NCBI RefSeq assembly: GCF_005239225.2
Contig: NC_133290.1
Coordinates: 11,168,204 to 11,232,203, forward strand
DNA from: Populus alba
Taxonomy: Eukaryota; Streptophyta; Magnoliopsida; Malpighiales; Salicaceae
DNA: 64,000 nt
Direction of reading: 5' to 3'
Of this stretch, positions 2,130-62,965 are shown in pieces (the stretch's first letter is position 1; each line of letters begins with the position of its first letter). The notes below the pieces were generated by a model. That model did no database searches. It was not told where the DNA came from and saw only the letters and a program-made list of their open reading frames with translations. Both the position numbers and the translations under genes were made by a program.

Positions 2130-3703
2130 ATGGCTTGGATATTAACCACTCTAGCCTTGATTGCGCTCGCTTTCTTCCTCCGAGCTTGGCTGTCGAAAAG
2201 AAAGATCAAGGATAGCAAGTTACCCCCTGGTCCAATAGGGTTTCCTATATTTGGTAGCTTACATTTGTTAGGGAAGTTCCCTCACCATGACTTGCATCGA
2301 CTAGCAAAGAAGTATGGCCCTATCATGTATATGCGGTTAGGCTTGGTGCCTACTGTAGTTGTCTCATCGCCTCAGGCTGCCGAATTGATTCTTAAGACCA
2401 ATGACCTCGTCTTTGCTAGCAGGCCAGCAAATGAGGCTGCGAAGTATATCACTTACGAGCAGAAGAACTTATCATTTGCTCCATATGGCTCTTATTGGCG
2501 CAACGTGCGCAAGATGTGTACCCTTGAGTTGCTTAGCAACCATAAAATAAATTCTTTCATGTCCACGAGGAAAGAAGAGCTTGACCTCTTGATTGACTAC
2601 ATTAAAGATGCTTCTCGTGAGCGTGTTGCCGTTGATCTTAGTGCCAAGGTCTCATCTCTAAGCGCTGACATCAGTTGTAGGATGGTTTTAGGAAAGAAAT
2701 ACATGGAGAAGGAATTTGATGAGAAGGGGTTCAAACCAGTGATTCATGAGGGCATGCGTTTAGCAGCAAGTTTTAACTTGGGAGATTACATCCCTCCACT
2801 TGCGCCACTTGACCTTCAGGGTCTTACAAAGCGCTTGAAGGCCATAGGCAAGGTTTTTGATGACTTCTTCGAGAAGAGTATTGATGAGCACATTCAGTTC
2901 AAGGACGAAAACAGAACCAAAGATTTTGTTGATATCATGTTGGGCTTCTTGGGATCTGAAGAAACAGAGTATCGTATTGGTCGAGACAACATCAAAGCCA
3001 TAATCTTGGTAAATAGAATTAAAATAACTGTTAGTAAGCAGCACATAAATCACATGGTTATCCTTAAATCTGTACCTTTCTTTTTCAGGACATGCTTGTA
3101 GGCTCAATGGACACCTCAGCCACAGCAATTGAGTGGACTCTCTCCGAGCTTATCAAGCATCCAAGAGTAATGAAGAAAGTCCAGAAAGAGCTGGAAGAGA
3201 AAGTAGGCATGGATAGAATGGTGGAAGAATCAGACTTGGAGGACTTGGAGTACTTGCACATGGTTGTAAAGGAAGCTTTCAGGCTCCATCCAGTTGCACC
3301 TCTACTTATCCCTCACGAGTCAGTGGAAGATTGCACTATAGATGGCTTCCTCATCCCGCAAAAAACACGTGTTATTGTAAACGTTTGGGCTATTGGGCGC
3401 GACCAAAGTGCTTGGACTGATGCAAATAAGTTTATTCCAGAGAGGTTTGCTGGGAGTAACATAGATGTTCGTGGACGCGATTTCCAGCTTCTCCCCTTCG
3501 GGTCAGGGCGCAGGGGCTGCCCTGGAATGCATTTGGGACTAACCATGGTTCGGCAAATTGTGGCACAGCTGGTGCATTGCTTTGACTGGGAGCTTCCTAA
3601 CAATATGTTGCCGGAGGAATTGGACATGACTGAGGCGTTTGGTCTTGCAACCCCGAGAGCAAACCATCTGTGCGCCACTCCTACTTATCGCCTTCACCTC
3701 TGA
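2130..3703 (+). CDS. Cytochrome P450 monooxygenase, CYP71 clan, CYP736A-like
   Basis: Two exons, 2130-3008 and 3089-3703, joined across an 80-base GT-AG intron in phase 0, encode 497 aa, normal for plant P450s. The single intron sits just before the I-helix, a common CYP71-clan position. Visible parts are a hydrophobic N-terminal ER anchor (residues 1-20), the hinge PPGP (32-35), an I-helix oxygen-binding motif GSMDTS (298-303), the ExxR pair E355/R358, PERF (410-413) and the haem loop [11 protein letters not shown] with Cys437 as iron ligand. All catalytic elements are present, so it should be a working ER haem-thiolate oxidase using NADPH-P450 reductase. The CYP736A assignment is from remembered similarity. 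The substrate cannot be read from sequence; this clan is often involved in stress and specialised metabolism. No gene neighbours suggest a cluster. Confidence 0.92.
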
Positions 3704-28489: not shown

Positions 28490-31400
28490 ATGACTCTGTT
28501 CACCCTCTTTTCCACTCTCTCCCTACTCTTTCTATCCACTTCCGGGTCGGACCTCCGATCCTTACTCGAATTCAAAAAAGGTATTCTATACGACCCACTT
28601 GACAAAATCTTCTCCAAATGGGACCCCTCTTCTATACCCGACCCTAATTCCTGCCCCAATTCATGGCCCGGTATCTCCTGCGACCCCAATTCAGATTCCG
28701 TCATTGCTATAACCCTTGACCAACTTAGTCTCTCCGGCAACTTAAAGTTCTCTACTTTACTAGACCTTAAGTCACTGCAGAAAATTTCACTTTCGGGTAA
28801 TAATTTTACGGGTCGGATTGTACCTGCATTGGGATCCATGAGCTCGTTACAGTACTTGGATCTGTCTAACAACAATTTTTCAGGTCCGATCCCGGGTCGG
28901 ATCGCGGAGTTGTGGAATTTGAAGTATTTGAACTTGTCAATGAATGGTTTTGAAGGCAGGTTTCCGGTCGGGTCACCAGTTGGGTTTAGGAATTTGCAGC
29001 AATTGAGGGTTTTGGATTTGAGTTCTAATAGTTTTTGGGGCGATATTAGTGGGGTTTTAAGTGAATTGACTAATTTAGAAAGAGTGGATTTGAGTGATAA
29101 CGAGTTTTTTGGTGGGTTTAGTGAGATGAGTGTAGAAAATGTGTCAGGTTTGGCCAATACAGTGCATTTTGTGAATTTGAGCAAGAATAGATTGAATAGT
29201 GGGTTTTTCAAAGCAGAGGTAATTGCGTTGTTTAGGAATTTGGAGGTTTTGGATTTGGGGGATAATGTGATTAATGGAGAGTTGCCTTCACTTGGGTCTT
29301 TGACGAATTTGAAGGTTTTGAGGCTGGGGAATAATCAGCTTTTTGGAGGTATACCCGAGGAATTGATCAACGGGTCGATACCGATTGAAGAACTGGATCT
29401 TAGTGGCAATGGATTTACAGGTCTAGTGATTCTTGACTATTCTTTTTGTGATTATTATTGGTTTTTAATTTTTATTTGATATGTTTTTGGATTTTTCTGC
29501 TTTTTGTTAGAAATTTGTTTGGGTGTATAGTCAACTGTATGTAATAATTCTGATGATTTTTTATCCAATTTTAGCACTTAAAACCTGAGGTTACTTGTGA
29601 CACAGTATTTAGCTGGTAACCTGGATTTTGACCTTTTTATTTTCCTTTCTTTTTCGGAAATTACTTATATTTTTGCCTGGGTTTTCTAAGTATGGGTTTC
29701 CAAAAATAGTAAAACTACGTCCAAAGTGCGAATGGTGACTTTGTAGATTTGGACTCTAGAGGTACAGGCAAAATGTGGCCTTCTTGATTTGGATGCTAGA
29801 AGCTTTGGTAAAATGCTGTTTTCTTGTTAAATGAAGTGTAAACCTGTCGAATCTGAGTTAGCATCACAAGCTTTTTGGGTTGGGTCATTTAAATTGAGAT
29901 GCAGGAAAATTAGCTGGAACAAGTACATGTGTCCTTAAGTTAAGCCTTTCGCATTTCATATCCAAACTGAACATCAATGCATTTGTTTTGGATGTCTATG
30001 ATGAAAGATTTGAATATGGAGTATAAAGAAAGCAGTTGAAAAAAATAAAATAAAATGTAGAAGTTTGGTGTTACATTGTATTTTAAATAAGATGGTTGTA
30101 TACCATGGTTTTCTTCTTCCATAACTTCTTAATCTGAATCCTGTGTATATCTGAATTCCTTATTTTATATCTCTGCAGGTTCTGTTCATGGAACTCACTC
30201 CACAACTTTGAACATTTTGAATCTTTCTTCAAATGGTTTAACGGGTGCCTTGCCCACTTTTCTTCAAAGATGTTCAGTAGTGGATTTGAGTGGAAATATG
30301 ATCACTGGTGACCTGTCTGTCATGCAACAATGGGGAGCCAGTGTAGAGGTCCTTGATTTGAGTTCAAACCAGCTATCTGGAAGCTTGCCAAACTTGACTT
30401 GGTTTGTGAGGCTAAGTGAACTTAATCTTAGGAATAATTCCCTAGACGGCAATTTGCCTGCCCAATTGGGGGACCTTTCAACATCGTCTTCAGTTGACCT
30501 CAGCTTAAATCAATTCAATGGGCCCATTCCAGGTGGTTTTTTTACTTCATTGACCTTGATGAACCTGAATCTTTCAGGAAATCGGTTTTCAGGCCCAATT
30601 CCAGTTCAAGATTCAGGTGCTGGGGAATTATTAGTTTTACCTTCTTATCCATTGATGGAGTCTCTTGATCTCTCTCAAAATTCATTATCTGGTATATTGC
30701 CTTCTGGCATAGGCAACTTTGCCAATCTCAGATCACTGAATCTTTCAAATAATAACTTGTCAGGACTGCTGCCAATTCAATTGAGCAAACTAACCCACTT
30801 GCAGTACCTTGATTTATCTATCAACAGATTTCAGGGTAAAATCCCTGACAAGCTTCCATCCAGTCTGATTGGATTGAACATGTCCAATAATGATCTCGCT
30901 GGAAATATTTCACTGAACTTGAGAAATAAATTTGATATTTCTTCATTTCGTCCTGGGAATCCCTTATTAACCATCCCAAATACCGGGGTGGAGCCATCAA
31001 CAAATTCTGTTCCAGGTCAGATTTCTGTACATGGTAAAAATCACAGTTCAAAGCGTAATATTACAATAGCAGTAATTGTTGCTACAGTTGGGACTGCTGC
31101 AATGATAGCTTTTGTTTTACTGGCGTATCAGCGGGCTCAACAAAAAGAATTTCATGGTAGAAATGATTTTAGTGGCCAAACAACAAGGGAGGATGCTAAG
31201 CAAGGAAGATCTTCCCAAACTTCCCTTTTCAATTTCCACTCGAATGCTCACCGCTCTCCAACTTCATTGAGTTTTTCAAACGATCACTTGCTTACTGCAA
31301 ATTCAAGGTCGTTATCGGGGCAGGCAGAATTTGAAACTGAAATCGTTGAGCATGGTTTGCCTGAAGGAATGGCAGCTGGTTCATCTTCAATTCCTAATTT

Positions 31401-34400
31401 GCTAGATGACCATCCCACAACATCTGGAAAGAAGTCCTCCCCAGGTTCCCCATTATCTTCCTCACCTCGTTTTGTCGAGCCTACAAAATTGGATGTCTAT
31501 TCTCCAGACAGGTTGGCTGGGGAACTGTCCTTCCTTGACAGTTCACTTGCATTTACTGCAGAGGAGTTATCTCGAGCCCCAGCTGAAGTTCTTGGCAGAA
31601 GCAGCCATGGAACTTTATATAAGGCTACTCTGGATAGTGGACATATGCTGACTGTGAAGTGGTTGCGGGTTGGACTAGTCAAGCATAAGAAAGAATTCGC
31701 CAAGGAAGTTAAAAAAATAGGCTCTATAAGACACCAAAATATTGTTCCACTGCGAGCATTTTATTGGGGTCCTAGAGAGCAAGAGAGACTTCTTTTAGCT
31801 GACTATATCCAGGGTGATAGCTTGGCCCTACATCTATATGGTAAGCATTTTATTATGTTGAACTTTGTGTATTTCTCGTCATGTTTTTATTTTGTAACAA
31901 TTATTATGCTACTTCGATATATGTTTGAAAAAATGCCACATTACTGCTGCATGTTGATTGTTTGATTTTAACCTAGACATCTCGTTGATCATTGCGGGCA
32001 ATTTTAACACTCATGTCGATAGTGGTGCAGATCCAAGTTTCTGAACTTAAAAAGTGTTTTCAAACATGTTAAGTAAATTGCTTTTTGTGTGTTCTTGAAA
32101 TATAAAAACCTATGATATCTCATATTCTGAGCCTGCTACAAACAATAGGAATATTTCCTTGGAGTGTCTTGAATGTGGAGTAGTCCCACTTTGGAGAGGC
32201 TAACATTCAGGACAAGAAGCGCAATATAAAAAAGTAAAAGACACAGCCTCACTATTCCACTATTGAGGTTTGGAAAAATAGGGTACTTTACTACAATGCA
32301 CCTGAAGCAGACAATGCACCATCAAATATTGCAAGAATAACGTTCTTTAATATAATGAACCTCTGGTAGGCAATGGTGTCATCAAATTGATCTGTTTTCT
32401 GCCAGTTTTCCCGCATTTAGGCCAGGTTTAACATTGGAAAAAAAATTATGTTAATCTGGAATATAATCATCTGGGATATTACTGGTTTCTTACCTCAATG
32501 TCCAGACATATTAGGGAATTCTGTACCCTTCAGTTTATTTTGTAGAAAATTAGCCTCATATACTGGGAGCTTTGTATTATACTTAAATTAGAATGGTGTT
32601 GCTCCCTCCCTTTTTTTTTTCCTGAACGTTCAAAATTGAGAGTTGTTTCAGCAATCCAGGTTCTTTCTGTCGTGTCTGTATCTACAGAAGTTTAGAAGTA
32701 CCCATTTTGTGTCAGTTAAATATAATATGATAGGACTGTGTCCATTGAATATATTCCTGTACATGCTAGTCTGTCAATATCTCTTCTAAATCATTAGTGA
32801 TTCTACTGGCAAGAATGTCAGTTTAGCAGAAAGGACCATCTACAAATGTGAAAGATGCTGGGTCTTGAGATTGACTGGTTTTCCTATCACTGAAGACTGA
32901 TGGCTTCTTAAAGGATTGGTTTATAGTAAATGGGAACTAACTTGGATTAGTGTGTAAAAAACCAACGAGATTATAATAAGATTAGGCCTAAAAATTCTGA
33001 CGTGATCAATTGTTCAAGTGAAATTAAGTTTGTTAGGAGAGGGTTTTCTTTTAGAATGCAGATGTTACTCAACATTACTGCAATGATTTTCACTCATTAA
33101 GTTGCATTAATAATGATTCATCACATTGCATGTTGTAGTCCCAGGTGATTTGATTGGCTGTGCCATATTTGTGATGTTATAGCTGAAAAGTTATGCACTT
33201 GATTTTAGTCTTACGGTCTGGTTTGCCTATGAGTTCCCCCCCTAGTGGAATGGGGAATTTAAAACATTCTTGGTGCAGGAAATAACTATTTTATAGACGC
33301 AGAAACATTTAGTTGCATGACAAATCTTTGCACATATTCTTGACTTTAGACAATCTTTGTCTATTTATGTTGGTTTCTCAATGGTATAATAGATTACCTA
33401 TGTTTCCAGTGGGCAAATACAATAGAATTATGAATATTGCAGGTTGAGTGTGTTAATGGTGATAAAATCTGATTTTATTTTATTTTTTGTTATCACAAAT
33501 GCCATCTGATTAAAGCGAACACTTTTGATAATTAGAATGGTTATATGGTTGGGAGGAATATGAAATTACTGGGTCCTGGATATGGCTAGGTGGGTTTATG
33601 TCCGTGCAAGGCAAGGTGTCAGTCCTCTCTCTGTTTTTGTGCATGCTTGCACATGTGCCTAGGAATTAAATGGTATGGGGTCTATGGGAATGTAGAATCA
33701 AAACCGGAGATATGGCATGGCTAATGTTCTAGAGCTTGTATAGCTGGTTGGAAACTGCAAATGTTGTTTGATGGCCACAGCTGTTGCCCACTGCAAAGCT
33801 TGCTTCTAATACCATACCGGTTCTTCATTAGTTCCCTTCTCTTTTCATCTGACAGTTGTGAGCTTTGATTTTAGTTTTATAGTCTTCAGATATATACAAA
33901 ATGTCTACCAGTGTCTAGTGGTTAACAGATAAATTGATTGTAGTGTGCATAAAAGGGAGGCAACAATTTCAGTTGTCCTTGGAACTATGAGCTTGCTTCA
34001 ACTCTTAAGTAACAGGGACATGCATTTTGGGTGTTATACACAAGTATTTTACATTTTCATTTAGACACTGCTGGCTGCTGTTGCTATTCTTCCTAATTTT
34101 TTTTTTTTCTGGAACTCGTGTTGCACAGAAACAACACCTCGGAGGTACTCCTTGTTGTCATTCAGCCAAAGACTAAAAGTTGCTGTTGATGTTGCTTGTT
34201 GTCTACTGTATCTTCATGATAGAGGCATGCTCCATGGAAATCTAAAGCCAACAAATATACTCCTGGAAGGTCCTGATTACAATGCACGCCTCACTGATTG
34301 TGGACTTCATCGTTTGATGACCCCAGCTGGCATTGCAGAGCAGATACTAAATCTGGGAGCACTAGGGTACCGGGCTCCAGAACTTGATAATGCATCTAAA

Positions 34401-34706
34401 CCTGCACCTTCATTCAAGGCTGATGTGTATGCATTTGGAGTTATCCTGCTGGAATTGTTAACCAGAAGAAGTGCTGGGGACATAATATCAGGTCAATCTG
34501 GAGCAGTCGACCTTACAGATTGGGTTCGGTTGTGTGATCAAGAAGGCAGACAAATGGACTGTATTGATAGAGATATTGCAGGTGGGGAAGAACCAACGAA
34601 GGCAATGGATGATTTGCTTGCCATATCGCTCAGGTGCATTCTTCCTCTAAATGAGAGGCCTAACATCAGACAAGTCTTTGATGATCTCCGTTCTATATCT
34701 GTTTGA
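28490..34706 (+). CDS. LRR receptor-like protein with inactive kinase domain (At5g10020-like)
   Basis: Three exons (28490-29420, 30179-31840, 34129-34706), both introns GT-AG and in phase 1, encode 1056 aa. Order: signal peptide (1-19), LRR N-cap with LLEFKKGI and WPGISCD, about twenty LxxLxLSxNxxxG repeats to about residue 560, a transmembrane helix near 606-628, a Ser-rich juxtamembrane stretch, and a kinase-like domain from about 772. The glycine loop is degenerate (LGRSSHGTLYKA), the VAIK Lys is kept (K804), but HRD is HGN (about 900) and DFG is DCG (about 921), so catalysis is unlikely. Length and features match a known plant plasma-membrane pseudokinase receptor family, remembered as At5g10020-like. 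It probably acts as a scaffold or co-receptor; the ligand is unknown. All junctions keep frame, so the gene appears intact. Confidence 0.93.
29421..30178 (+). other. Intron 1 of the LRR receptor gene
   Basis: Begins GTCTAG after ...TTTACAG and ends CTCTGCAG. It falls within the LRR region after 'GNGFTG'. Nothing else of note inside. Confidence 0.85.
31841..34128 (+). other. Intron 2 of the LRR receptor gene (2.3 kb)
   Basis: Begins GTAAGC and ends TTGCACAG, interrupting the kinase-like domain after 'LALHLY'. No coding frame or mobile element with visible ends was recognised inside. Confidence 0.85.
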
Positions 34707-47521: not shown

Positions 47522-47540
47522 GATGCTCCTCTTTACAATG

Positions 47541-49302
47541 TGATTAGTACTTAAAAGTGCATGTTTATCAAGGTTTTATATCATCATTTTGCACTTGAAG
47601 TATCAATAACTCCTTAACTAAAGCATGTTTTATAATAACAAGTTTGATATTATAAGATACCTTAATTTATGGTAAATGCTCATTTTAAATGCAGGACTAT
47701 CACATAAATAAAAGGATTGATTGATGAGTTTAAGTATTGAAAGTTAAAGACAAAGAGATGGCCAAACTTAGAAAAGAGATGTCGGTGCAGTCCAAACCGG
47801 AACATTGCTCGGTAATTGGATCATATCTGGAGCTCTAGATATCTGATTTAGGTTCATTTTATATGGATGGAAAGGTAAGACAAAGGCCTACAACTTTCAT
47901 GTGGAGCCCAAGATTTAAAAAGGTCATTTTGAAGTCCAAATTGAAGGAACAACGAAGAAGTCCGAAGCTGTCCTGCAGCCCAAACACTATTTAGTGTTCA
48001 GCCCATATCTTGAGTTATAGAAGTCCAAATGACCTCATCTTTTTTTTGTTGGAAAGCTGAGACAATTTCCTAGAACATTCTTGAGAATTCTGGGCAATTT
48101 ATGATGTTAGCAATGACGTCTTGTTCAGACAAGAAGATAAGGATTGTCACCAAGTCAAGATGTGGCCACCCACTCATCAATTAGTCAACAAATCAATAGT
48201 TCCAAATTTTGACCTATAAAAGGAGGAACTTACCATGTATTGAGGCATCTTGGTTTCCAGATCAAGATCATGCTCTTGCTTTCTCTCTTTGTATTGCTTA
48301 TGTTTTGCTTTCATTAATATCAAGTTTATGCACTTCATTTCATTTCCTTTATTTAGTTAACTTCTTTCTCATTTATGTTCTTGTCTTGTTCATTTATATT
48401 TCTATCTTTCATTATGTCTAGCTAAGCTAATTATGTCAAGGTGAAAAGGGTACACTAATGGTGTAAGAATAAGTATAATATAAACTTAACATGAACCTTA
48501 ATGTTGGATACTAACATGTTTTATATTTGTTATCTTGTTCACTTTTAATACTTTGCTTGTTAAATGGTTAATCTAGATTTATGTTGTATAACACTTGGTA
48601 CAAAAAATACTTGGTACTTTCATAGCCCATACTGTATGGTATAATCGACACCTGAGCTATGAAAGGGACTTGATTTGTTGTTAACATAAGTTATAATCAT
48701 GAATGCCTGCCAATATTTACAAGTATTAGCTTTATTCGAATAAGATAACTAATGTAATCATGTTAACAATTTATAATCTGATTGGAACCACCTTTATGTG
48801 TGGTTTCCAATTGAGTAATAAGAGTTTATATTATACTTGTTTGAAGTACCATTAGTGGATCCTCTAACCTTGACATTCGTTTTTATCATTGTTTAATCCT
48901 TACATTAATCTTCCAACTCAAAGTTCTCATTAATTTCTTCATCTTCATCTTCTTCTATTACTACTACTACTACTATTATTATTTTTATTATTATTATTGT
49001 TGTTGTTGTTATTTACATTCTGTAATGTATCCCTTTGATCTTTTCATAAACTCAGTATATAGGCTGGAAACCTGTGACCCGATCTTTTGGATCATTCTTA
49101 GGTGTAACAACGCCACGTACTGAGTATGATATTATTATTATTATTGTTATTGTTATTGTTATTGTTGTTGTTGTTGTTGTTGTCTTGTTATTTATAATTT
49201 ATACAATTAACCTCTTTGTGGTTTGACCCCGGTCTTGCCGAGTTATTTATTACTTCGACACTCCTGCACTTGGGAAAAGACATCAAGCTTTTGGTCGTGT
49301 CA
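47541..49302 (+). repeat. 5' LTR of the Athila-like element
   Basis: 1762 bases. TATAAAAGG at 48215-48223 is a good promoter TATA, with its twin at 56071 in the 3' LTR. ATT/GTT trinucleotide runs near 48956-49015 and 49129-49182 differ in length between the LTRs. A 'gtggtttgaccc' block lies near the end. Confidence 0.92.
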
Positions 49303-49308
49303 AGTTTT

Positions 49309-49326
49309 TGGCGCCGTTTCCGGGGA
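49309..49326 (+). other. Primer binding site, tRNA-Asp type
   Basis: TGGCGCCGTTTCCGGGGA begins seven bases after the 5' LTR. The usual Athila-type site is TGGCGCCGTTGCCGGGGA, so there is one mismatch. Confidence 0.85.
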
Positions 49327-49511
49327 GGTAAATTCTTGTATAAAGTTTTTCACTTTTCATTTTATCTATTTTTTTTTCTTTTGTTTTCTTTTGTTTCTTT
49401 TTCTTCTATTTTCTTTTCTTGCTTTTATTCTTTTCTTACACATGCATGAGAGTTTGGTCACGTACATTAAGTGGTCGACTTTGTAGGGTATCCTCATCAT
49501 TTTCAGAAAAT

Positions 49512-52496
49512 ATGGCCGAAGAAGATAATCAATCGCTTCATAATGAGAATAATGAGAATAACCGTATGAGAACACTTATAGACCATATGAATCCCACAAG
49601 AACAAGTGCACCCTCATGCATAGTTTTCCCTCCTGATGCATCTCATTTTAATTTTAAGCCAGACATTATTCAACTTTTACCTTCTTTTCATGGTTTAGAC
49701 CTAGAAAATCCATACTTGCATTTAAGGGAATTTGAGGAGGTCTGTAATACCTATAATGACTCAAATTGTAGCATGAACACCATTCGATTAAAGCTTTTTC
49801 CTTTTTCATTAAAAGATAAAGCTAAAACATGGCTACAAAATTTGAGACCAGGATCCATTCGTGCTTGGGATGATATGCAACAATAATTTTTAAAGAAGTT
49901 TTTTCCGTCTCATAGAACAAACTCTTTCAAAAGACAAATCATCACTTTCACTCAAAAGCCAGGAGAAACATTTTACCAATGTTGGGATAGGTATCGAGAT
50001 TTGCTTAATACTTGCCCACATCATGGTTTTGAAACATGGAGATTGGTTTCACATTTTTATGAAGGTTTAACACCTAGAGATAGGCAAATGGTTGAATTGA
50101 TGTGCAATGGAACCTTTGAAGATAAAGACCCTAATGAAGCAATGGAGTACCTAGACTTGCTAGCCGAAAATGCTCAAAATTGGGATACCACAAGTACTTA
50201 TGAGGCACCAAATAAAACTCAACCTCATACATCTAGTGGAGGTATGCACAACCTTAGGGAAGATCATGACCTCCAAGCCAAGTTTGCATCTTTAGCTAGA
50301 AAAGTCGAGGCACTAGAATTGAAAAAGAGTGGTCAATTAAAATCTGTTCAAGACATTGTGTGTCAAATCTGTGAAACAAATGAGCATGCAACCAATGATT
50401 GTCCAACTTTGCCTTCTTTCAAGGAATGCCTCCATGAACAAGCTCATGCTTTAAACAGTTTCCAAAGGCCCAACCATAACCCATATTCGCAAACATACAA
50501 TCCTGGTTGGAGAAATCACCCAAATTTTAGTTGGAAGAGTGATAGCAACAATGCACAAACTTCACAGCCACCGTTTCAAGCACACCATAATTTTCAAAAT
50601 TCTCATGGATATGCACCTCCTTATGCTCCACCTCTTAGAAGAAATCTTGAGGAAACATTGCATGCATTCATTGAAAAGCAGGAGACAATCAACACTCAAC
50701 TTGCTCAAAGCATGACAGATTTTAAAGATGCTCTTGCAAAATTAACAACTGCTCTCAGTTTCCAAGAGAAAGGTAAGTTTCCTTCTCAACCACAGCAAAA
50801 TCCAAAGGGGCAATACAATGCAAATGCAAGTGGTTCTGGAAGCCAACACATGGATCAAGTCAAATCAGTCATCACTCTTCGTAGTGGTAAGGTTATTGAA
50901 AAACCTATTCTTGAACCTTGTGAGAAAGATGATGAGTCTATCTCTAAGGGTAAGGAAGGGGTTGAACCTGAACATTGCAAAGAGAAGCCTGATTCCCCGC
51001 CAGCACTTCCATTTCCTCATGCCATGACCAAACAAAGGAAAGTCAATCACAACTCTGAAATCTTTGAAATTTTCAAACAGGTAAGGATCAATATACCTTT
51101 GTTGGATGCTATTAAACAGGTTCCTTCCTATGCTAAATTTTTGAAAGATTTGTGCACTGTGAAGAGAAAACTGAATGTGAAAAAGAAAGCCTTTTTAGCC
51201 GAACAAGTAAGTTCCATTCTTCAGAACAATAATGCTTTGAAATATAAAGACCCTGGTTGTCCTACAATTTCTTGCTTTATTGGAGAACATAAAATTGAAA
51301 GAGCCTTACTTGATCTTGGAGCTAGTGTGAATTTACTTCCATATTCAGTCTTTCAAAGTCTCAATCTAGGTGAGTTAAAACCAACTTCTGTAACTCTTTT
51401 ACTCACCGATAGATCTGTAAAAGTGCCTAGAGGAATAATCGAAGATGTGTTAGTACAAGTCGATAAATTCATTTATCCCGTGGATTTTATTGTCTTGGAC
51501 ATGCAACCTGTTGAAGCATGTAATTCATTTCCTATTATTTTAGGACGTCCATTTCTTGCAACTTCTAATGCATTGATTAATTGTAGGAATGGACTCATGA
51601 AGTTATGTTTTGGAAACATGACATTGGAGATGAATATTTTCAACATTTGCAAGCAACCTGGAGATGATAATGATTTACAAGAAGTAGATCTTATTGAAGA
51701 ATTAGTTCATGATCAACTTGAATCTACTTTGAGTAAAATTGAGTTGGATGAATCTGAAGATTTGCAAATGATTTATTCTCAGGAAGAAATCACGGATGAA
51801 AAAGGCACCAAAAATATTGATGCTAATCTTGTGTCAAAAGTGACAACAGATTTGACATTTGACATCCCACCAATCGATGATTACTTTCCTGAAGAATCCT
51901 TACTTTCTCTCAGTTCAATGCCTTGGTTTGCTAAAAATATCAATTTTCTTGCAACAGGAGATTTGCCAGCTCACTGGAGTACCGAAGACAAAGGAAAGTT
52001 TTTGAACGAAGTGAAGAACTTTTACTTAGATGACCTTTACTTATTCAAAAATTATCCTGATCAAATATTTCAAAAATGCATTCCCGACAATGAGGTAAGT
52101 AATGTCATTAAACTGTGTCATTCTGAAGCATGTGGGAGTCAATTCTCATTAAGAGAGACGACTGCAAAAATCTTACAAAATGGATTTTATTGGCCCACCA
52201 TGTTCAAGGACACACATGCATTCTGCAAAACTTGTGAAAATTGTCAAAAAGTTGATACTGGTCAAAAAGTTTTGCTTTATAATTCTCAACTCCATTTATT
52301 TCCTGAAAAACTAAGATCAAGATGGAGCGGTCCATTTATTTTGAAACATGTGTATCCTTATAGGGCCTTTGATATTGAGAATCCAAAGAATGACAATGTT
52401 TTGAAGGTAAATGAACATCGTTTAAAAGCTTACTTTGATGAGTTTCCTAGTGAAAATGAATCCATTGGTTTGAATAATCTTATTGATAAAGGTTGA
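49512..52496 (+). pseudogene. gag-protease-integrase remnant polyprotein with one stop codon
   Basis: A single reading phase of 994 codons runs from ATG 49512 to TGA 52496, broken only by TAA at 49884-49886. Gag comes first (FPPDASHFNFKPDIIQLLP, PGSIRAWDDMQQ). A CCHC knuckle (CxxCxxxxHxxxxC, 50361-50402) follows, then an aspartic protease with DLGASVNLLPYSV at about 51312 and flap ILGRPFL. The frame then jumps to the pre-integrase region (PWFAKNINFLATGDLPAHW), the integrase zinc region from 52116 (CHSEACGSQFS, FCKTCENCQK) and, after a second jump, the integrase C-terminal part (GQKVLLYNSQLHLFPEKLRS). RT, RNase H and the DDE core are absent, yet phase is kept at both joins. The second zinc-ligand His appears replaced by Gln. 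It may still supply Gag and protease if the stop is bypassed. Confidence 0.85.
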
Positions 52497-52705
52497 TTAT
52501 TTTGTTTTTCTCACATTTTTTTTTGTTGCTTTTTAGTGTGACTTTTGTTTTGCTAGTCTCTCACCCCGGTCAAATGGCGGATAACGGTACTCCGTGATAT
52601 AAGTCGGTTCTTTCAGTTTCCCAAATAATTGATATCTGTATATATTTGTACAATTCTGTGCTCTTTCTCCCTTCTTTGAATCTCGTCTCCAATTCTCTTT
52701 TGAAA
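52497..52705 (+). other. Spacer between polyprotein and ORF2
   Basis: Contains 'ctctcaccccggtcaaatgg' and an upstream ATG at 52646 in phase with ORF2. No other feature. Confidence 0.5.
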
Positions 52706-53254
52706 ATGGACACCACTCTTGAAAAGTTGAAAAGGTATTTTCCCGCTCTACCTTCAAATGCGATTACAAAAATTTACTGTGCTAGGTGTGCAAGATTGAG
52801 GTTGTTAATGAATCATGGAATTCCTGAATATATTCGTTGGCTGATTGAAGCAAAGGTCCGATTATCAGGTGAGTTCTCCAATTCTTTCATTTCACACATG
52901 CCTGGAACAGGTAAAAGTACTTTTGCAAAGAAACGTCGTGCAAAACGACTGAAAGTCTGTCACAGATGTGCCAGATGGACTTGCAATGCAACATGTCGTT
53001 CTTTAGGAATGGTATCTGTAAATCGTGAAGATAAAATACAATTCATTAAGGATGGCCTGAGTAAGGGGTCTTTAGATAATCTTTTGTTGACCCTTGAGAC
53101 GCATCCTAGTGGAGATGTGCATCGTGTAATTCATGATTTATGGCCACAATTCCATAAAGAACATGATCGACTTAGTCTTGGGAATTTGACTAAAAAAGAC
53201 CCTGTTTGCCAGTTTTTAAGAAAACTGGATGGGAAGCCTATCCCCGACCCATAG
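52706..53254 (+). CDS. Unrecognised Cys-rich ORF carried by the retrotransposon
   Basis: 182 aa from ATG 52706 (an in-phase ATG at 52646 would add 20 residues). I do not recognise the family. Visible features are CARC (C25-C28), a basic stretch KKRRAKR (75-81), then CHRC (C85-C88) and CNATC (C93-C97), which could form one or two zinc sites, and a C-terminal half without cysteine clusters. PGTGKST at 66-72 recalls a P-loop but lacks the first glycine at the right spacing. The frame is open and lies in the same direction as gag and LOG. It could be a lineage-specific accessory protein or a second captured host gene. Confidence 0.6.
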   Translation: MDTTLEKLKRYFPALPSNAITKIYCARCARLRLLMNHGIPEYIRWLIEAKVRLSGEFSNSFISHMPGTGKSTFAKKRRAKRLKVCHRCARWTCNATCRSLGMVSVNREDKIQFIKDGLSKGSLDNLLLTLETHPSGDVHRVIHDLWPQFHKEHDRLSLGNLTKKDPVCQFLRKLDGKPIPDP

Positions 53255-53353
53255 AGGGCGTTTAAGCCGTTCTTGGACGTAAAACCAAGGGAAGATGTGA
53301 GCCACAATCACAACTACCTGTATATACATGCTTTTTCAAAATAAATAATTAAT

Positions 53354-53354
<1 letters not shown>

Positions 53355-53396
<42 letters not shown>
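53355..53396 (+). repeat. GA dinucleotide microsatellite upstream of LOG
   Basis: About twenty GA repeats between the Cys-rich ORF and the LOG leader. Confidence 0.95.
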
Positions 53397-53398
<2 letters not shown>

Positions 53399-53447
53399 AC
53401 ATCTGGCCTACATATAGGTGGTATGATTGCATTTTCCATTTTTCATC

Positions 53448-53454
53448 TATAAAT
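53448..53454 (+). promoter_or_regulatory. TATA-like box in front of LOG
   Basis: TATAAAT lies 66 bases before the LOG start codon, followed by a pyrimidine-rich stretch ('cttctcttccttcccttc') like a plant 5' leader. LOG could therefore be transcribed separately from the element's genomic RNA. Confidence 0.4.
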
Positions 53455-53519
53455 TCTTCTCTTCCTTCCCTTCATTTCTACTCATCCCATACATTCATCA
53501 AATATAGAAGTGTGTAGAA

Positions 53520-54173
53520 ATGGCAGGTTCCTCAAGTCATCACATAAAAAATATTTTTGTTTTCGGTGGATCCAGTCCTGGGAAAGAAAAAGAGTTTTTA
53601 GAATCAGCAAATCATCTTGGTCGGGTACTAGCTAAGAGAAAGATTCATTTAGTGTATGGGGGAGGTAACCTTGGGTTAATGGGAGGTGTGTCAATGGCTG
53701 CATTTTTGGGAGGTAGTCAAGTTTTGGGGGTTGTCCCCAAAGCTTTAGCAAATGGGGACATCATTGGAAAAACAATTAGAGAAGAACTACAGGTCCCAAC
53801 AATGTCTGACCGACTGAATACCATGTTTAACCATGCTGATGCCTTCATTGCCTTACCAGGTGGTCTGGGCACATTGGAAGAGATCTTTCATATTTCATCT
53901 TGGGCCCAACTGCACATTCACCACAAACCTATAGGTTTGTTAAATGTTAATGGTTTTTATGATAAGTTGTTCTCTTTCCTTGATCAAGCTGTGGAACAGG
54001 AATTTCTAACATCTTCGGCACGACGAATCATAATCTCTGCTGCTACTGCTGAACAATTGATTGACCAACTACAATCTTTCATCCCTATCATTGATCCCTG
54101 CATGAGTCGCCTAGATTGGTCAACTAAGGAAAGCCGTAAAAAGCTTAGATTAGATTTGAGCCTTCATCTGTGA
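53520..54173 (+). CDS. LOG: LOG-family cytokinin riboside 5'-monophosphate phosphoribohydrolase, intronless
   Basis: 217 aa, the usual LOG length. LOG enzymes hydrolyse cytokinin nucleotides to the active free base plus ribose 5-phosphate in the cytosol and nucleus. A Rossmann-like start is followed by YGGGNLGLMGG (46-56) and the signature PGGLGTLEE (113-121) with E121. R98 is kept in MSDRL, but the Lys that normally follows Arg in this motif is Leu99. The last nine residues are LRLDLSLHL, an LxLxL (EAR-like) pattern. Typical plant LOG genes have several introns; this one has none and sits between the integrase remnant and 3' LTR of a retrotransposon, in sense orientation. The frame is open and all signature residues but one are present, so activity is plausible though the altered motif leaves some doubt. 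An alternative is a LOG-like protein with another nucleotide substrate. Confidence 0.9.
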   Translation: MAGSSSHHIKNIFVFGGSSPGKEKEFLESANHLGRVLAKRKIHLVYGGGNLGLMGGVSMAAFLGGSQVLGVVPKALANGDIIGKTIREELQVPTMSDRLNTMFNHADAFIALPGGLGTLEEIFHISSWAQLHIHHKPIGLLNVNGFYDKLFSFLDQAVEQEFLTSSARRIIISAATAEQLIDQLQSFIPIIDPCMSRLDWSTKESRKKLRLDLSLHL

Positions 54174-55397
54174 AAACTTGTGTCTTTTGGTTTTATTAAT
54201 AGCATATTATTTTGTTTTGTTACTTCTTATGTTTGCTTAAGTGTATTTCAGGTTTGTCATTATTCGCTGTTTCAGGTGATGTCTTCTATACTCTATCTTT
54301 GTACTTTACGACATTGAGGACAATGTCTCGTTTTGGTTGGGGGGAGAGGGTAGTACTTCAAAAAAAAAAAAAAACTAACTTGCTAACTGTTTTTGCTATT
54401 ATTAAAACCATTTGACAAAATTGTTATTAGGATGACAGAGTATGGAATCAATTTTATTGACTCTAGAGACGCATCTTAGTAAGTTTCATTACCAAGGTCT
54501 ATCATAATACTTCTTGAAATATTCAGGTTTACAAACTCTCACATTGTTATCACTTGATTCTGCTTATATACTCATTTAACAAGTATTATTAAACCTTCAT
54601 TTTCACACACACACTTTAACATATGATTATGGGTTGCACATTGGATTATTACATTAATTATGTTCTTTTGTTGAAGGTAACAACTAAGGGAAAATGATAG
54701 TATATAATTTGCAAAAAAAAAAAAAAAAAAAGAAAAAAGAAAGAAAAAAGAAAAAAAAAGATAGTATTGATGATAATAAAACGTGGATAAGTTTGGTTTC
54801 GTAGCCTCCATAACCTAAGCAATTAAGCTCGAAGGGGTGTTTTAACACCTAATACCCTAAAGTCAACTGACTTGGGAGCTATTGGCCCAAAGCTTGTTAC
54901 ATGGGTTAAGGAGAAAAGCTTAAGGGAATCAAACATTGCACTATCTACGTATCAGTATCTGCAACCCGAGTTGTTAAGCTCGTAGGGGTGTCTCAACACC
55001 TAATGCCCTAAGACCAACTGGTCTGGGAGTCATTAGCCTAAAACTCGTTACATGGGTTAAAGATACATTGTGTTTTAAGTATATGTGTATATAAATAAAA
55101 AGAAAAAAAAAGTAATCCCAACCCAAGGAAGTTCACCTTAAACATTTGAACATAATATTTTTTTCTTCCAACAAAAGCCCCACCATCTATGTTTTTATTG
55201 AGCACACAAAAAGAAGGTTTATTAATATCTTGTTTAAGAAGTATGAAGCAGGAATATAAATTTAATGAGAGTTTGTTTATCTGGATAGATTAATGGAAGT
55301 TGAATGATGAATGCCTTGCTTTATGGAACTTGCAAATTGTTTCTCTATTTTAACGCTTTAGATTACTAGGGACTAGTAATAAGCTGGTTGGGGGGTG
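54174..55397 (+). mobile_element. 3' non-coding region of the Athila-like element
   Basis: Contains GACATTG/CAATGTC inverted words (54310-54327), a first PPT-like tract TTGGTTGGGGGGAGAG (54335-54350), and an A-rich stretch near 54713-54762. Two direct repeats (about 54820-54912 and 54966-55062) share 'ttaagctcg.aggggtgt', 'aacacctaat.ccctaa' and 'gttacatgggttaa'. No open frame of note. Confidence 0.75.
55386..55397 (+). other. Polypurine tract before the 3' LTR
   Basis: GGTTGGGGGGTG directly precedes the LTR start TGATTAG. A similar tract at 54335-54350 lies about 1.05 kb upstream. Confidence 0.75.
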
Positions 55398-57143
55398 TGA
55401 TTAGTACTTAAAAGTGCATGTTTATCAAGGTTTTATATCATCATTTTGCACTTGAAGTATCAATAACTCCTTAACTAAAGCATGTTTTATAATAACAAAT
55501 TTGATATTATAAGATACCTTAATTTATGGTAAATGCTCATTTTAAATGCAGGACTATCACATAAATAAAAGGATTTATTGATGAGTTTAAGTATTGAAAG
55601 TTAAAGACAAAGAGATAGCCAAACATAGAAAAGAGATGTCGGTGCAGTCCAAACCGGAACATTGCTCGGTAATTGGATCATATCTGGAGCTCTAGATATC
55701 GGATTTAGGTCCATTTTATATAGATGGAAAGGTAAGACAAAGCCTACAACTTTCATGTGGAGCCCAAGATTTAAAAAGGTCGTTTTGAAGTCCAAATTGA
55801 AGGAACAACGAAGAAGTCCGAAGCTGTCCTGCAACCCAAACACTATTTAGTGTTCAGCCCATATCTTGAGTTCTAGAAGTCCAAATGACCTCATCTTTTT
55901 TTTGTTGGAAAGCTGAGACAATTTCCTAGAACATTCCTGAGAATTCTGGGCAAATTATGATGTTAGCAATGACGTCTTGTTCAGACAAGAAGATAAGGAT
56001 TGTCACCAAGTCAAGATGTGGCCACCCACTCATCAATTAGTCAACAAATCAATAGTTCCAAATTTTGGCCTATAAAAGGAGGCACTTACCATGTATTGAG
56101 GCATCTTGGTTTCCAGATCAAGATCATGCTCTTGCTTTCTCTCTTTGTATTGCTTATGTTTTGCTTTCATTAATATCAAGTTTATGCACTTCATTTCCTT
56201 TCCTTTATTTAGTTAACTTCTTTCTCATTTATGTTCTTGTCTTGTTCATTTATATTTCTATCTTTCATTATGTCTAGCTAAGCTAATTATGTCAAGGTGA
56301 AAAGGGTACACTAATGGTGTAAGAATAAGTATAATATAAACTTAACATGGACCTTAATGTTGGATACTAACATGTTTTATATTTGTTATCTTGTTCACTT
56401 TTAATACTTTGCTTGTTAAATGGTTAATCTAGATTTATGTTGTATAACACTTGGTACAACAAATACTTGGTACTTTCATAGCCCATACTGTATGGTATAA
56501 CCGGCACCTGAGCTATGAAAGGGACTTGATTTGTTGTTAACATAAGTTATAATCATGAATGCCTGCCAACATTTACAAGTATTAGCTTTATTCGAATAAG
56601 ATAACTAATGTAATCATGTTAACAATTTATAATCTGATTAGAACCTCCTTTATGTGTGGTTTCCAATTGAGTAATAAGAGTTTATATTATACTTGTTTGA
56701 AGTACCATTAGTGGATCCTCTAACCTTGACATTCGTTTTTATCATTGTTTAATCCTTACATTAATCTTCCAACTCAAAGTTCTCATTAATTTCTTCATCT
56801 TCTTCTATTACTGCTACTACTACTATTATTTTTTTTTTATTGTTGTTGTTGTTATTTACATTCTGTAATATATCCCTTTGATCTTTTTATAAACTCAGTA
56901 TATAGGCTGGAAACCTGTGACCCAATCTTTTGGATCATTCTTAGGTGTAACAACGCCACGTACTGAGTATGATAATTATTGTTATTGTTATTGTTATTGT
57001 TGTTGTTGTTGTTGTTGTTGTTGTCTTGTTATTTATAATTTATACAATTAACCTCTTTGTGGTTCGACCCTGGTCTTGCCGGGTTATTTATTACTTCGAC
57101 ACTCCTGCACTTAGGAAAAGACATCAAGCTTTTGGTCATGTCA
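55398..57143 (+). repeat. 3' LTR of the Athila-like element
   Basis: 1746 bases, colinear with 47541-49302. Scattered substitutions plus small length changes in the trinucleotide runs. Confidence 0.92.
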
Positions 57144-57148
57144 CAATG

Positions 57149-58950
57149 CTTACGAAGCAAAACTCTTCAATGTTTTGCATAGTAAGCTTTGTAAAGAAAA
57201 ACTTGTCTTCTTGTCTTCCTAGCTGCTTAATATCCACTCATTTAAAGACCTTACTTTTTTCTTTTTTTGTTTCTTTCTCTCTATGTGTGTTTTTTTTTTA
57301 AAAACTTGAGATCCCATCCGGCGACCTCCTGTAACCAAAACCAAAGCATTTGTGTAACTCGGTCAACCTGAAATCCCATCTGGTGATTTCCTCTAACCAA
57401 AGCTACATAAGATCCCATCTGTCGACCTCATTCAACTAGAACAAAAACATATGTGCAGCTTGATCAACTTGAAATCCCATCTGACGATTCCCTTTAACCA
57501 AAGCCATCTGAGATCCCATCTAGCGATCCCTTTTAACCAAAACCAAAGAATACGTGTAACTCGATCAACCTAAAATCCCATCTAGTGATTCCCTTTAACC
57601 AAAGCCACACGAAATCCCATCTGGCGACCTCATTCAACTAAAACAAAAAATATGTGCAGCTCGGTGAACCTGAAATCCCATCTGGCGATTCTCTTTAACC
57701 AAATCCACCTGAGATCCCATCTGGCGATTCCCTTTAACCAAAGCCACTTGAGATCCCATCTGGAGACCTCATTCAACTAGAACTAAAAAATGTGCGTAGC
57801 TCGGTGAACCTAAAATCCCATTTGGTGATTCCCTTTAACCAAAGCCACCTGAGATCCCATCTAGCAACCTCATTCAACTAGAACTAAAAAATATGCGTAG
57901 CTCGGTGAACCTAAAATCCCATTTGGTGATTCCCTTTAACCAAAGCCACTTGAGATCCCATCTGGCGACCTCATTCAACTAGAGCTAAAAATATAGGCAG
58001 CTTGGTCAACTTGAAATCCCATCTGGTGACCTTATTCAACCAAAACAAAAAAATATACGTAGCTCGGTCAACCTGAAATCCCATCTGGCAATTCCCTTTA
58101 ACCAAAGCTACTTAAGATCCCATTTGGCGACCTCATTTAATCAAAACAAAAGAATGTGTAAAAAGTGGTCTCATTGTAATGGGTGACCTACCCAGGTGGA
58201 AAAGAATGTGAAAAATGGTCTCATTATCATGGGTGACCTACCCAGATGGAAAGAATGTGAAGTGTGGTTTCATTGTAATGGGTGAGCTACCTAGATGGAA
58301 AAAATGTGAAAAACGGTCTCATTATGATGGGTGACCTACCTAGATGGAAAGAATGTGAAGTGCGGTCTCATTGTAATGGGTGACCTACCCAGATGGAAAC
58401 AATGTGAAGCGCGGTCTCATTGTAATTGGTGACCTACCTAAAGAAAAAGAAAAGAGTGGTCTCATTGTAATGGGTGACCTACCCAAGTGGAAGAATGGCC
58501 TCATTGTAATGGGTGACCTACCCAGGTAAAAAAAACATGAAGAATTGGTCGTGTTGTAATGGGTGACCTACCCAGAAAAATGTTGATGATGGCTCAAAGG
58601 CACACTCGAAAATAGGTAGGGTTAGAAACGCACTACTCGAGATGATGGCTTAAAGACACACACAAAAAAAGGTGAGGGCTCAAAGGCGCACTCGAAATGA
58701 GGTAGGGTTAGAAAATGCACTACTTGAGAAGTGAGGGCTCAAAGGCGCGCTCAAAAGGAGGTAGAGTTAAAAAACGCACTACCTAAAAGATGGTGGTTTA
58801 AAGGCGCACTCGAAATGAGGTAGGGTTAGAAAACACACTACCCAAGAGTTGGTGGCTCAAAGGCGCACTCAAAATGAGGTAGGGTTAGAAAATGCACTAC
58901 TTGAAAAATGATGGCTCAAAGGCGCACAAAAAAGAAAGTGAGGGCTCAAA
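57149..58950 (-). repeat. Tail tandem arrays of the minus-strand element
   Basis: Three arrays follow one another. At 57307-58150 a composite unit of about 100 bases repeats ('gatcccatctggcgacctc', 'attccctttaaccaaagcc', 'gtagctcggtgaacct'). At about 58155-58576 a unit of about 50 bases repeats ('tctcattgtaatgggtgac', 'ctacccagatgg'). At about 58578-58945 a unit of about 58 bases repeats ('ggctcaaaggcgcactcg', 'aggtagggttagaaaa'). No coding. Confidence 0.9.
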
Positions 58951-62250: not shown

Positions 62251-62259
62251 GCCACCATT

Positions 62260-62965
62260 CATCTTTCATTTGGGTAGGTCACCCATTATAATTAGACCAC
62301 CTTGCACCTTTCATTTGGTTAGGTTACCCATAACAATGAGACCACTTCATATTTTTTCCATCTTCTATTTGGGTAGGTCACCCATCATAATGAGACCATC
62401 ATATTCCATCTAGGTAGGTCACCCATTATAATGGGATCGTTTTTCACATTTTTTCCATCTAAATAGGTCACCCATTACAATGAAACCACTTTTTACACAT
62501 TTTTTTTTGGTTTTGGTTAAAAGAGGTCGTCAGATGGGATCTTAGGTAGCTTTGGTTAAAGGAATCGCAATATGAGATTTTAGGTTAATCGAGCTACACA
62601 CATTCTTTGGTTCTAGTTAAAAGAGGTTGCTAGATGGGATTTCAGGTAGGTTTGGTTAAAGGAATCGCCAAATGGGATTTCAAGTTGACCGAGCTACACA
62701 CATTCTTTGGTTGTGGTTAAAGGAGGTCACCATATAGGATTTCAAGTAGCTTTGGTTAAAAGATATCACCATATAGGATTTCAGGTTGACCGGGCCATTA
62801 ACATTATCTTAGCATTGGAAGAAAAGTGAGAAAAACCTTACCATTAGGAAATTATCAAAAGAAAAAAAAAAGAGAAAGTTCAAACCCTGCCATCAGGAAG
62901 AACATTTTATTTGGTTCTGGTTTAAGGAAATCACCAGATGGGATCTTAGGTTAACGAAAAAAAAA
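62260..62965 (+). repeat. Tail tandem arrays of the outer element
   Basis: 'gggtaggtcacccattata' units at 62270-62500 and 'ttggttaaagg.atcgcca' / 'agatgggat.tcaggta' units at 62505-62965. These are the inverse complement of the arrays at 57307-58576, with fewer copies. Confidence 0.88.

Follow-up and report, generated by a model that had tools for sequence, protein, structure and literature searches.

To our knowledge, the additional genes of plant LTR retrotransposons are mostly without known function. The slot behind pol in Athila elements often holds an env-like frame, and two Athila-like elements with LOGL4-like frames were reportedly described by Steinbauerova et al. in Genetica in 2011. 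That work is cited for a LOG-type domain in elements by PMC9289625, which records a YgdH (LOG) domain in LTR-retrotransposon consensuses from two Citrus species and P. trichocarpa; reviews in the same field are PMC7264820 and PMC6317226. The presence of LOG in such elements is therefore already known from the Citrus, P. trichocarpa and Athila-like reports. Here we compare with these systems an element found in the window, by which we mean the whole stretch of 64,000 nucleotides of Populus alba DNA that was analysed.

Architecture of the element and its copies

The element spans positions 47541-57143, between two perfect CAATG target-site duplications (47536..47540 and 57144..57148) that the original prediction had noted; its LTRs and internal features lie on the plus strand. 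The 5' LTR (1762 bases, 47541..49302) and the 3' LTR (1746 bases, 55398..57143), each delimited by a blastn comparison with the other, are 97.2% identical, with 34 differences over 1746 aligned bases, transitions accounting for 24 of them (K = 0.0197). Substitution rates of 2.5e-9 to 1.5e-8 per site per year would place the insertion between roughly 4 and 0.7 million years ago. The element had been called young, with matching LTRs; the close pair is there, whereas the word young hinges on the assumed rate. Across the genome, the best non-self match of the 5' LTR is its own 3' LTR (97%), the rest reaching 96% at most among the best 40 of 4512 candidates, and the window element therefore represents one insertion. 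Both LTRs also match the Rfam family MIR2912 (RF04032) on the minus strand (47866-48021, 106 bits; 55723-55877, 104 bits), and this microRNA family looks LTR-derived.

From 5' to 3', the element is composed of gag, a shortened pol, a gene resembling those of viral nucleic-acid-binding proteins (NABP), a (GA)n spacer, a TATA-like leader, the LOG-derived gene, a tail and the 3' LTR. A primer-binding-site-like stretch, TGGCGCCGTTTCCGGGGA, which we take to resemble the tRNA-Asp type, is located at 49309..49326. The gag region (49512..50880) was assigned from its open reading frames and a Retrotrans_gag match just under the model cut-off (E 8.5e-05), and contains an in-frame stop at 49884-49886. 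The pol remnant (50881..52496) comprises a protease-like region (Asp_protease_2, E 0.0011), an integrase zinc-binding domain (Integrase_H2C2, E 1.3e-11) and an integrase C-terminal region. Gaps against the longer copies L013/L031 and L025/L034 place the loss of the reverse transcriptase (RT) and RNase H near 51786 and that of the integrase core near 52256. Because its own gag and pol are broken, the window copy would depend on other copies for its multiplication. The virus-NABP-like gene follows at 52706..53254 (182 codons); this gene, the gag stop and the missing RT, RNase H and integrase core had been overlooked in the original prediction.

Next to it are the (GA)n microsatellite and spacer (53346..53439), whose length differs in an alignment of 20 copies, and a conserved leader (53440..53519) with TATAAA about 70 bases 5' of the LOG ATG, a motif present in 32 of 33 other copies. 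The LOG frame runs without introns from ATG to stop over 217 codons (53520..54173), intact and in sense between the pol remnant and the 3' LTR, as had been predicted. It is separated from the LTR by a 1.2-kb tail (54174..55397), in which a G-rich tract lies immediately 5' of the LTR and two 90-base direct repeats (54823-54912 and 54974-55063) are 81% alike, the repeats being seen in other copies too. Outside the element, 57307-58927 and 62252-62792 hold tandem arrays of ~100-base units with ATCCCATCTGGCGA; 4-5 kb or so beyond, the unit is found again in reverse-complemented form, and this inverted layout may mark the ends of another element. Frames at 2130-3703 and 28490-34706 resemble, by eye, cytochrome P450 and LRR receptor-kinase gene pieces and look like ordinary host genes.

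Matches in the P. alba genome were scored for the top 150 candidates of a protein query or the top 40 of a DNA query, with copy numbers as lower bounds and intactness biased upward. The LOG search returned at least 150 full-length matches, 94 to 100% identical (best 150 of 1770 loose candidates); 139 of these best-scoring copies are free of stops and 11 carry them. For the NABP-like protein, 15 of the best 150 of 1714 candidates contain stops, and the gag DNA search covered the best 40 of 1458 candidates. Full loci were taken from 20 of the 23 best LOG matches. In all 20, selected as they were by LOG match, LOG lies 3' of NABP-like sequence and 5' of the tail and LTR, an order on which chance or an assembly artefact was rejected; a position of LOG outside the LTR pair was likewise rejected. 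The NABP-like sequence is near full length in 17 of these loci and truncated in 3, and its frame is intact in 9 and broken in 11. Twelve share the shortened pol of the window, and L013 and L025 retain RT, RNase H and integrase sequence. A Pfam scan of L013 found RVT_1, RT_RNaseH and rve, in that order and in three separate frames, all absent from the window copy; none of the three frames scanned showed a second RNase H. A tentative Athila assignment follows earlier reports. An LTR pair with a perfect 5-base target-site duplication is found in the window (CAATG) and in two of 8 loci examined for duplications, L021 (CTTTT) and L027 (AAGTC); in the other 6, the stretch did not reveal where the far LTR ends.

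The same placement of LOG in other copies, which the original prediction had put forward as a check, extends to 8 of 8 divergent loci with the same neighbours and to 28 of the 50 best NABP matches, 3' of which LOG is listed at one spacing. A same-strand LOG is listed 2.5-5.9 kb downstream of 19 among the best 40 gag matches, a set that includes the window. As a sample not picked by LOG, one 951-base stretch was taken from 12 of the other 21 gag matches. LOG is present in 4 of these stretches (one free of indels, the other three carrying indels of 1 or 2 bases), has been lost by one common deletion in 4 and is absent from the stretch in 1; the other 3 belong to the longer class, where LOG would come further on. 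The four LOG-less copies (L036, L037, L040 and L044) share one junction, after 53345 and resuming at 54136, retain the final 38 bases of LOG (54136-54173) and have multiplied as a subfamily. The remnant at a single junction, together with the presence of LOG in divergent subfamilies, identifies them as deletion derivatives, and a LOG-less ancestral state was rejected on these grounds. LOG is thus common yet, since these copies multiplied, dispensable for at least one subfamily.

Identity of the LOG protein and its neighbour

The LOG frame encodes a LOG-family protein (PF03641 / TIGR00730; PF03641 E 2.7e-38) with the motifs YGGGNLGLMGG and PGGLGTLEE. Its predicted structure (pLDDT 85.7) superposes on AtLOG3 (2a33) with a TM value of 0.95 by target and an rmsd of 1.0, and its fold is therefore intact; the two proteins are 48% identical. 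The contrast originally drawn between intron-bearing plant LOG genes and an intronless element gene was borne out. The P. alba genome gave 16 pattern matches to cellular LOGs, and in the one examined (L055) the coding stretch is divided into at least five pieces, whereas the element frame is continuous. It had further been suggested that the gene was captured as spliced RNA or is a long-term passenger. RNA capture is, however, no better an explanation than DNA-level capture, after which introns could equally be lost as the element passes through spliced RNA, and the TATA-like leader conserved 5' of the ATG leans slightly towards a DNA-level event.

In a maximum-likelihood tree of 46 rows, chosen from the matches listed, 31 element-type rows form one clade (support 100/100, stem 0.72) inside the plant LOGs, and two bacterial rows stand apart from it. 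Because the element LOGs make up one clade in this tree, a single old capture by the element lineage is likely. The branch of Xanthoceras and Acer lies outside a 22-row group containing Populus and Parasponia. Annotated proteins of these two genera join LOG to element sequence. The Acer protein P0265 consists of NABP followed by LOG, and Acer P0274 and P0284 and Xanthoceras P0107 and P0242 run gag-pol into LOG; the Xanthoceras locus tags 032186 (LOG) and 032187 (NABP) are adjacent. Three further NABP/LOG pairs stand on source sequences of equal size (8723, 4511 and 3394), which suggests that they are physically linked. The annotated Xanthoceras proteins P0102, P0107, P0241 and P0242 have 336-406 residues; P0102 and P0107 display a tandem LOG pair, with gag-pol text between the two in P0107.

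In the Corynebacterium LOG, Arg99 and Glu122 are proposed to be catalytic, the adenine site includes Met96, Lys100 and Glu121, and the likely prenyl site Met96, His97, Lys100, Glu125 and Trp129; alanine at AMP-binding or catalytic residues, Ser19 excepted, nearly abolishes activity (PMC4979012). The equivalents in the window protein are R98 and E121 for catalysis and M95, L99, E120, S96, H124 and W128 for the pocket. The PGGxGTxxE motif and the catalytic Arg and Glu are thus present, whereas the canonical Lys, Glu and His of the pocket are replaced by L99, H124 and S96, respectively. Because the canonical pocket is absent, the protein is filed as a LOG-family homologue and not as a cytokinin-activating LOG.

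Over 196 aligned rows, the catalytic residues are kept in 188 (R98) and 191 (E121). Position 99 is L in 90 rows, K in 46, M in 43, I in 16 and H in 1, and position 124 is H in 130, E in 45, Q in 18 and Y, R or T in 1 each; P0289 is the only row that combines Lys with Gln. Outside the element clade, 15 of 15 rows have pocket Lys and Glu; inside it, 10 do. A 21-row subclade that contains Populus has Leu, Met or Ile in place of Lys and His or Gln in place of Glu, with the catalytic Arg and Glu kept; neither this subclade nor the element clade (31 of 46 rows) had been noticed in the original prediction. In a tree computed without the pocket columns, the K99- and E124-equivalents each need one change, and the changed-pocket set has a support of 89/92 and is present in 88% of bootstrap trees; with all columns included, its support is 99/95. 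The element LOGs of Xanthoceras and Acer retain the canonical Lys and Glu, and the ancestor was therefore probably a normal LOG.

The loss of pocket Lys and Glu in the Populus subclade makes cytokinin activation by the Populus element LOG doubtful. On the bacterial cytokinin-LOG equivalog model, whose cut-off is 300, the window protein reaches 114 bits. Wheat LOGs with conserved residues can still differ in product (PMC11593424), so that residues by themselves cannot decide activity. It had been proposed that transposition would spread a hormone-activating gene; the spread is evident, whereas the hormone-activating part is called into question by the pocket residues lost in Populus.

The 182-residue neighbour exceeds the cut-offs of both Pfam models for carlavirus-type NABPs, PF01623 and PF05515, with 29.0 bits for Carla_C4 (cut-off 20.9) and 26.3 bits for Viral_NABP (cut-off 23.0), the matches being local (35 and 81 residues, respectively). 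Both models are also matched at E < 0.01 by 24 of 24 relatives scanned, which were chosen from the matches listed. The protein displays a basic stretch followed by C-x2-C-x4-C-x3-C, a motif shared by the window and 85 of the 120 relatives listed, whose hosts include Populus, Xanthoceras and Acer. Its predicted structure (pLDDT 52) is too poor for use. No relative turned up among the IMG/VR viral contigs when LOG, NABP or the NABP alignment was used as query. Given the local match and the lack of an IMG/VR relative, descent shared with viral genes, with transfer in either direction, is likely rather than firm. Silencing suppression or nucleic-acid binding is known for some of the viral relatives; viral cysteine-rich proteins are described as silencing suppressors, and that of chrysanthemum virus B is reported to act as a hyperplasia-inducing transcription factor (PMC12172455).

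Tests of selection, proposed mechanism and competing explanations

Substitutions were classed as shared (in two or more copies) or private (in one), and their nonsynonymous to silent ratios per site (N/S) were compared by Fisher tests in which changes are taken as independent and are not assigned to the branches of a tree. For NABP, the shared and private ratios are 0.17 and 1.09 (p 8e-7, 27 rows), and 0.09 and 0.81 in the 18 closest rows (p 5e-5). The corresponding values are 0.12 and 0.39 for gag (p 0.006, 18 rows) and 0.25 and 0.64 for LOG (p 0.003, 34 rows); among the 21 closest LOG rows, chosen by LOG similarity, the contrast of 0.18 and 0.32 is not significant (p 0.40). Between window-type and divergent copies, dN/dS is 0.24 for LOG and 0.21 for NABP. 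Because shared changes show this surplus of silent ones and private changes far less so, selection on the mobile lineage followed by decay after insertion is likely, the signal being less clean for LOG. The original prediction would have been overturned by a LOG missing from every other copy and placed outside any LTR pair, or by a dN/dS close to 1 together with numerous broken frames. Neither outcome was seen: LOG is widespread, its dN/dS between window-type and divergent copies is 0.24, and 139 of the best-scoring 150 copies are free of stops. The 80-base leader has a core-to-divergent distance of 0.070, against a LOG dS of 0.177, and the conservation of leader and TATAAA across subfamilies suggests a candidate internal core promoter.

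In the reading that we favour, at a probability of roughly 55%, LOG is a once-captured accessory gene of a Ty3/gypsy element, located beside a virus-NABP-like gene and kept for the multiplication of the element, and its substrate in Populus is probably another nucleotide. An intron-bearing plant LOG gene would have been taken up by the element once, and the longer copies would supply reverse transcriptase and integrase. The virus-like protein may bind nucleic acid and counter host silencing, as its viral relatives do, and LOG may be expressed separately from the full-length RNA through the TATA-like leader. The pocket change would shift the substrate, with the LOG protein presumably hydrolysing a nucleoside 5'-monophosphate in the host cell. 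Through the action of both extra proteins on that cell, the element would be copied more often. This reading has to accommodate the sampled stretches, 4 of 12 sharing the LOG deletion and a fifth being without LOG in the stretch, the non-significant contrast in the 21 closest LOG rows (p 0.40), and a neighbour intact in 9 of 20 loci, with a local Pfam match and a predicted structure at pLDDT 52. A bolder version, which we put forward tentatively, regards the two genes as a host-manipulation cassette carried by rosid-tree retrotransposons since before the Xanthoceras/Acer-Populus split. LOG, captured once, would have been adapted through one pocket change to hydrolyse a different nucleotide, conceivably one with a signalling or defence role in the host, and its partner would be a viral-type, silencing-suppressor-like protein.

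The element LOG might instead still activate cytokinin, the pocket changes being tolerated and the free base, made wherever the element is expressed, favouring dividing cells and hence germ-line copying. The catalytic Arg and Glu, PGGxGTxxE and Trp128 are kept, the predicted fold matches AtLOG3, the Xanthoceras and Acer element LOGs are canonical at Lys and Glu, as befits an ancestor that was probably a normal LOG, and a hyperplasia-inducing viral NABP-like protein would suit a growth-promoting pair (PMC12172455). The Populus clade, however, has Leu, Met or Ile for the adenine/prenyl Lys and His or Gln for the prenyl Glu, and the 114 bits against 300 from the bacterial equivalog model may point the same way; we regard continued cytokinin activation as possible but doubtful. 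The multiplication of LOG-less copies, the non-significant LOG signal among the closest copies and the broken NABP in 11 of 20 loci would fit a passenger that rides along passively after a chance capture, of no benefit to element or host. Such a passenger is improbable in view of LOG frames open across subfamilies at a dS of 0.18 and a dN/dS of 0.24, of the conservation of the catalytic Arg and Glu (188 and 191 of 196 rows, respectively), and of LOG in element-linked Acer and Xanthoceras proteins. We give very little credence to the domestication of one or a few copies as host genes, with host use behind the conservation of the family. Some Populus copies are indeed annotated LOGL10 (P. trichocarpa, P. 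nigra) and a host transcript could make use of the conserved TATA-like leader, but at least 150 nearly equal copies, scattered over many sites amid the same element features, are what a mobile family leaves behind; none of them is conspicuous among the rest, and the annotation names derive from similarity.

Comparison with known systems

In the open-licence literature on LOG, on extra ORFs of LTR elements, and on viral NABPs and retrotransposons, no NABP-LOG pair was found described, and the virus-like partner, the single origin and the altered pocket appear new within the literature searched. The favoured reading concerns an identifiable enzyme whose active-site pocket has undergone one change that can be dated, adjoining a viral-type gene, at a copy number high enough to tell selection on the mobile lineage from post-insertion decay. 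It also carries a warning for annotation: Populus genes named LOGL10 include element copies, and a cytokinin function is not to be assumed for them.

The LOG elements of Citrus and P. trichocarpa and the Athila-like ones share with the present family a LOG-type extra gene in plant Ty3/gypsy elements, poplar included. By comparison with the passages of PMC9289625 on the Citrus and P. trichocarpa elements, the virus-like neighbour, the single-origin tree, the pocket change and the selection test are additional here. The element LOG agrees with AtLOG3, a cytokinin riboside 5'-monophosphate phosphoribohydrolase, in its fold, the PGGxGTxxE motif and the two catalytic residues. It differs in being intronless and mobile and, within the Populus clade, in the loss of both pocket residues, Lys and Glu. 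The carlavirus nucleic-acid-binding/cysteine-rich protein has the same basic stretch and four-Cys motif as the neighbouring gene, which here comprises 182 codons 3' of pol inside a retrotransposon, without a surrounding viral genome. A parallel is offered by the orchid Ty3/gypsy elements with an AlkB m6A RNA demethylase (PMC9289625), in which a host- or virus-type enzyme is likewise kept as an extra gene; there the enzyme and the plants are others, and the AlkB activity was shown in vitro.
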